This document shows, one piece after another, positions 1-621 of a stretch of 45,245 nt of DNA; the first letter of the stretch is position 1; every line of letters begins with the position of its first letter. Source of the DNA: Prochlorococcus sp. AG-402-I20 (GTDB lineage: Bacteria > Cyanobacteriota > Cyanobacteriia > PCC-6307 > Cyanobiaceae); NCBI GenBank assembly GCA_003216975.1, contig QCHY01000014.1, positions 1 through 45,245 on the forward strand, written 5' to 3'. A program made the translations under genes and the position numbers. The notes beneath the pieces were generated by a model. It saw only the letters and a program-made list of their open reading frames with translations, had not been told where the DNA came from and made no database searches.

Positions 1-67
1 TGCTCGTCCTCATCGTGAAGTTGAGCCAGCTTTGGGTAACGGTAACTTCTTGGGTCAGAAGGACTGA
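1..67 (+). pseudogene. 3' fragment of a second csoS1 copy
   Basis: Read from base 2, this encodes the last 21 residues of the BMC shell protein CsoS1 (beginning ARPHREVEPAL, ending NFLGQKD) and the TGA stop. It is identical to the 3' end of the intact csoS1 at 6018-6329. The window begins inside it, so the rest of the gene is not visible. Because it is fused to chlL 60-70 bases downstream, it is probably part of a chimeric end rather than a second functional shell gene. Confidence 0.85.
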
Positions 68-135
68 TTTTTGACTAAGTCCTAAGAGGAGATGACTTTT
101 CAAATTTTTAACCTTCTAAACTAATTAACTGGAGC
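1..135 (+). repeat. Direct repeat copy A of the csoS1 3' end and csoS1-cbbL spacer
   Basis: Bases 1-135 align without gaps to 6263-6397 (constant offset 6262). I find mismatches only at 93 (t versus g at 6355) and 130 (t versus a at 6392). Identity stops at the cbbL Shine-Dalgarno sequence, where the sequence becomes antisense chlL. The last shared bases, GGAGC at 131-135, also belong to the chlL codons for Ala-Pro, so the breakpoint shows about 5 bases of microhomology. Confidence 0.9.
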
Positions 136-621
136 GGCAAAACCACCGCAAACAACGTCGCCAAGAACATCAAAGATAACTACATCAGTATCCTCTAGAA
201 GATGGTGTTCTTTTAATAGTTTGACTGTTTGACCTGTTACATAGCCACCACATCCTGTTCCAGCTGGAGGTCCACCACTCTCAACGCACATCACACCATT
301 AAAACCTTTAAACATAAAGTCTTCAGGTCTAAGTTCCTCACTATGAAAATCTACTTCTTCAAGGATATCTATGACGGTAGGAACCATCTTATGTGTAAGG
401 GTAAAAGTGCTGTCATGCTTTGGATCACATCCAATTTGAAGTACTTTCTTTCCAAGTTTTGAAAATGCTGCTGATAAATTCGAAGAAGTAGTTGATTTAC
501 CAATACCTCCTTTGCCATATACAGCTATAACAAGAGCTCCTTCCTGGATTTGTGCTTTTGGGTCTTGTTTTACCTGAACGCTGCCTTCTCCGTCCTCCTT
601 ACGAGTTATTGTCGAAGTCAT
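121..621 (-). CDS. chlL: ChlL, light-independent protochlorophyllide reductase iron protein, 3' truncated
   Basis: ChlL is the NifH-like ATPase of dark-operative protochlorophyllide reductase (DPOR). It passes electrons from ferredoxin to ChlN-ChlB. The reading frame has 166 residues, against roughly 290-300 for the family. The N-terminal extension (1-28) precedes the P-loop GKGGIGKST at 37-45. The two cysteines that hold the inter-subunit [4Fe-4S] cluster are C124 (GTGCGG) and C158 (VVCGG), 34 apart as in BchL. The match to the family runs through GGFAAP. Then the frame enters the duplicated csoS1-cbbL spacer and stops after two foreign residues. The missing half carries much of the dimer and docking surface, so this copy as written would not work. 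It is divergent from chlN. Confidence 0.9.

Follow-up and report, generated by a model that had tools for sequence, protein, structure and literature searches.

The contig start and its copied tail

The DNA analyzed here (the window) is the entire contig C14, 45,245 bp, from a genome assembled in 43 contigs that is 92% complete. At its start, a short stretch matching the end of csoS1 and the csoS1-cbbL spacer is joined to antisense chlL, which is followed by chlN and chlB as the next two genes; csoS1 and cbbL themselves lie farther along the contig, with cbbL and its leader intact in place. Since the window covers a contig from one end to the other, base 1 lies at a contig terminus and the copy is a tail on it. 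NCBIfam models named both CsoS1 and the RuBisCO large subunit above their cut-offs. The features of this region are listed by position.

1 to 129, plus strand: very probably a false tail, a copy of 6263 to 6391 with one difference at 93; holds the end of csoS1 (1 to 67, last 21 codons and stop) and the csoS1-cbbL spacer (68 to 129)
121 to 129, minus strand: two foreign codons and a stop contributed by the tail, from the translated open reading frame
130 to 135, no strand: junction; 131 to 135 (GGAGC) is present in both parents, and 130 follows the chlL parent
130 to 621, minus strand: genuine first 164 codons of chlL, with 164 of 164 residues as in relative G020; across a hole of 23 bp, the gene resumes on contig C8, at that contig's end
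6263 to 6397, plus strand: genuine source of the tail (csoS1 end, spacer, and cbbL Shine-Dalgarno), found at the same place before cbbL in the regions of 7 relatives

When the window was searched against itself with BLAST, bases 1 to 135 matched 6263 to 6397 on the same strand with 98.5% identity over 135 bp (133 of 135 bases) and an E value of 2e-62, which is not a chance match. As the initial annotation had reported, the two copies differ only at base 93, which is T in the tail and G in the inner copy, and at base 130, which is T rather than A. That annotation described the copied segment as the csoS1-cbbL spacer, which is accurate for 68 to 129 but not for 1 to 67, which are coding. A second csoS1-like stretch is present in the window at 13142 to 13402 and is 75% identical to 6036 to 6296 within csoS1.

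From GGAGC (131 to 135) onward the sequence is antisense chlL, in agreement with the switch point proposed earlier. The open reading frame at 121 to 621 on the minus strand encodes 164 ChlL residues followed by V, N, and a stop, so the two foreign residues and stop codon attributed to the truncated protein are real properties of this contig. The NCBIfam ChlL/BchL model aligned to this truncated frame over positions 2 to 137 of 268. At the source, GGAGC (6393 to 6397) overlaps the Shine-Dalgarno-like AGGAG preceding cbbL, and the break does coincide with that element, as had been claimed.

To place the crossover, bases 129 to 135 were counted in 21 of 29 chlL loci from relatives, with 8 loci not located on the plus strand. 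Base 129 is C in the tail and A or G in all 21 relatives, base 130 is T in 20 of 21, and GGAGC is found at 131 to 135 in 14, with GGGGC or GGTGC in the remaining 7. The counts at 129 and 130 assign the sequence up to 129 to the csoS1-cbbL parent and the sequence from 130 onward to the chlL parent, with GGAGC common to both. By this comparison base 130 probably belongs to chlL, leaving base 93 as the sole difference inside the copy. For base 93, 88 loci were supplied and 15 were counted after two partial rows were dropped. The eight close relatives all carry G, like the inner copy, and the other seven, only about 70% alike, carry A (five), G (one), or T (one). Since T also occurs in one of these distant relatives, T at 93 is no proof of error.

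The remainder of chlL and the join in relatives

The por-chlL region of G020, used as a query against the genome that the window comes from, gave two matches, C8:80993 to 82683 and C14 from base 130. The C8 match runs to the last base of that contig (82683), and between it and base 130 of C14 lie 23 bp, or 8 codons, of G020 sequence that are absent from the assembly. Contig C8 encodes an intact por of 337 residues, which scored above the cut-off as LPOR, and ChlL residues 173 to 296 in frame, corresponding to positions 144 to 265 of the ChlL/BchL model. In G020, por also adjoins chlL, and ChlL has 296 residues; the initial annotation was correct that the C14 protein ends at residue 164, but its total of about 295 is replaced by 296. 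Identity to G020 ChlL is 164 of 164 residues on C14 and 123 of 124 on C8, and the codons sum exactly (164 + 8 missing + 124 = 296). Looking for a full chlL and por in the same assembly, a check that the initial annotation had suggested, thus yields an intact por and all of chlL except 23 bp. The truncated-looking chlL is most likely one gene lying across two contig ends, and chlL is almost certainly intact in the cell.

Among 40 other genomes of the genus, 34 had some match to the window and 6 had none, these six being incomplete genomes (35 of 41 matched when the window's own genome, G000, is included). The join was absent from all 31 of the other genomes that have chlL over this spot, where the match to the window ends at 127 to 131. 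Among named records, those that match best are Prochlorococcus and bear AG- plate names of the SCGC type. Two further observations were made in the chlL comparisons. Another genome, G021, has a hole of 200 bp inside chlL that corresponds exactly to window bases 411 to 610, and a lake metagenome bin titled Bordetella parapertussis (L132) carries a ChlL-like gene that is 79% identical, a title that is probably wrong.

Contig ends and contig spacing across the assembly

The assembly has 86 contig ends, 78 of them readable and 8 (C40 to C43) masked. Thirty-five anchors, mostly coding-looking, were picked by hand from a set of 81, and further ends fell in the same loci. In total, 44 of the 86 ends were matched; four (C10 start, C24 end, C26 end, and C31 start) were set aside because they hit repeat families or paralogues, and the 40 left plus the C3 end gave 41 placed ends. 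G020 served to place the C8 end and the C14 start, and the closed relative G004 to place all others. Collinearity with a relative extended to within at most 4 bases for 39 of the 41, the exceptions being the C14 start and the C20 end.

The last 416 bp of C20 (27643 to 28058) are inverted relative to G004, joining rpoC2 to antisense rpoC1 (L244 and L279; gene names from NCBIfam). The join lies at 7 shared bases, CAGCTTT, and the two pieces are 633 bp apart in G004 coordinates. No other copy of C20 27643 to 28058 was found in the genome search, and a living cell could hardly tolerate a break in the only copy of these RNA polymerase genes. The C20 end is almost certainly a false join of a kind typical of amplification chimeras.

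When contig ends were compared with 700 kb of the 1,697-kb genome, no second match of at least 100 bp at 95% identity or higher was found besides that of C14, a search that a source in the other 997 kb would escape. The last 69 bases of C3 match C26 (98.6%), and the C3 end was considered as a chimera; this was ruled out because C3 is collinear with G004 to its last base, and the match to C26 is a repeat. Contigs C7 and C31 have identical starts (bases 1 to 75 of each) and then diverge, with similar stretches in C28 and deeper in C7. Repeats of related families, with a period of about 102 bp (34 codons) and resembling TPRs by eye, lie at or near the ends of C10, C13, C24, and C26 and probably broke the assembly there.

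Distances between neighboring contigs were worked out by hand from G004 loci for pairs with both ends inside one locus of about 3 kb, so that gaps above about 1.5 kb escape. Five of nine pairs measured in G004 coordinates were separated by 180, 186, 188, 191, and 200 bp, the other four by 430, 861, 900, and 1256 bp, and none of the nine by less than 180 bp. The sole closer pair is C8 and C14, at 23 bp in G020 coordinates. We considered whether this 23-bp hole is proof of a fork in the assembly graph at k = 77 (100 − 77 = 23), as 77 is a common k in SPAdes. The idea was dropped: SPAdes in single-cell mode goes no higher than k = 55, for which a hole of 45 bp would be expected, and no k-sized step is seen among the gaps between other neighboring contigs.

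The smallest of the 43 contigs is 2,086 bp. In a published single-cell pipeline (PMC5519541), 100 bp is cut from each contig end and contigs above 2,000 bp are kept, and both the 180- to 200-bp gaps and the 2,086-bp minimum fit with that procedure. A Prochlorococcus single-cell collection (PMC6122165) lists AG- plates of the relatives' kind and states that it made its assemblies as in its reference 21, cited for WGA-X and presumably the PMC5519541 paper, with the same length limit and a benchmarked misassembly rate of 1.5 per 100 kbp. The genome is very probably a single-cell amplified product. If C8 was trimmed by 100 bp and those bases ran on along chlL, this contig once reached 77 bp past the break, and the normal gene was then read.

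Origin of the join

The start of C14 can be assigned to an amplification chimera at a contig end with a probability of about 0.93. This verdict rests on the position of the join at a contig end, the remainder of chlL on C8, the absence of the join in relatives, the second chimeric end on C20, and the contig spacing. The initial annotation had ranked an amplification or assembly chimera first, and the C8, C20, and 31-genome results support that order. Two non-adjacent pieces of one genome are joined here, and a short complementary stretch is present where they meet. In the proposed mechanism, phi29 polymerase copied a strand from chlL in the course of multiple displacement amplification, and the 3' end of this strand would have paired, via GCTCC/GGAGC, with single-stranded DNA some 6.3 kb distant and immediately ahead of cbbL, where synthesis would have continued. 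One of the two contigs would then have been assembled into the chimeric product and the other, C8, would have stopped close to it, with later trimming of contig ends leaving the 23-bp hole. A counterpoint is that base 130, if it matches chlL as the relatives suggest, shifts the shared 5 bp by one base from where a strict crossover would have them; an error at 130 would remove this difficulty.

Of the alternatives, the least credible is a real event, deletion or rearrangement, in which chlL was cut and dark chlorophyll synthesis was lost. The truncated frame on C14 speaks for it, but the same assembly contains the remainder of the gene, in frame and beside por as in G020, and cbbL with its leader is undisturbed. 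A pure assembly error without any chimeric molecule, through a wrong turn at a graph fork or mispairing, would agree with a repeat at a contig end and with C8 stopping close to the break. We consider it highly improbable, because the 5 bp common to the parents is too little to confuse a de Bruijn graph, whose smallest k is 21, and at least one read must have contained the join.

If this cell carried a real tandem duplication, the duplicated segment would measure about 6.26 kb (130 to 6391) and run from the first 164 chlL codons through chlN, chlB, and csoS1 into the cbbL leader; an intact chlL would precede the end of the first copy, and an intact cbbL would follow the second. The C14 join lies exactly in the orientation that such a duplication produces, and the remainder of chlL on C8 would also be expected. 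The initial annotation held that a real event would abolish dark chlorophyll synthesis, which does not follow: a same-orientation join from 6391 to 130 leaves one intact chlL and one cbbL. If the duplication were true and young, chlN, chlB, and one csoS1 would be doubled, and a second csoS1 end would lie beside a truncated chlL. Only one full copy of the 130 to 6391 segment was assembled. This explanation has to account for the 31 genomes without the join and for its position at the end of a contig, when a further end in this assembly is almost certainly false; T at 93, where the inner copy and all close relatives have G, is easier to reconcile with thin read support than with a young duplicate. 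It is nevertheless kept at a few percent because direct orientation is the less common kind among the 475 chimeras of Lasken and Stockwell (2007; PMC1855051), of which 406 were inverted and 69 direct, with direct joins across less than 10 kb rare (11 of 475).

For an amplification chimera, the practical meaning is a caution that gene loss or fusion should not be called from the contig ends of amplified single-cell genomes. The importance of the chlL break is limited to that caution.

In the orientation and order of its two pieces, the C14 start resembles the joins of bacterial tandem duplications. Unlike such duplications, it is supported by no second genome and by no full second copy in the assembly. 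With the amplification chimeras of PMC1855051 it has in common that two pieces of one genome, separated by less than 10 kb, are joined at a few shared bases, and the nearest named relatives of the C14 genome look like single-cell genomes. At least 2 shared bases were present at the join in 90.9% of the direct cases below 10 kb described there, and in a study of human data that counted inverted joins only (PMC5372508), overlaps were 3 to 13 nt in more than 95%. The direct orientation of the C14 join sets it apart from the commoner inverted kind of PMC1855051, to which the C20 end of this assembly corresponds.
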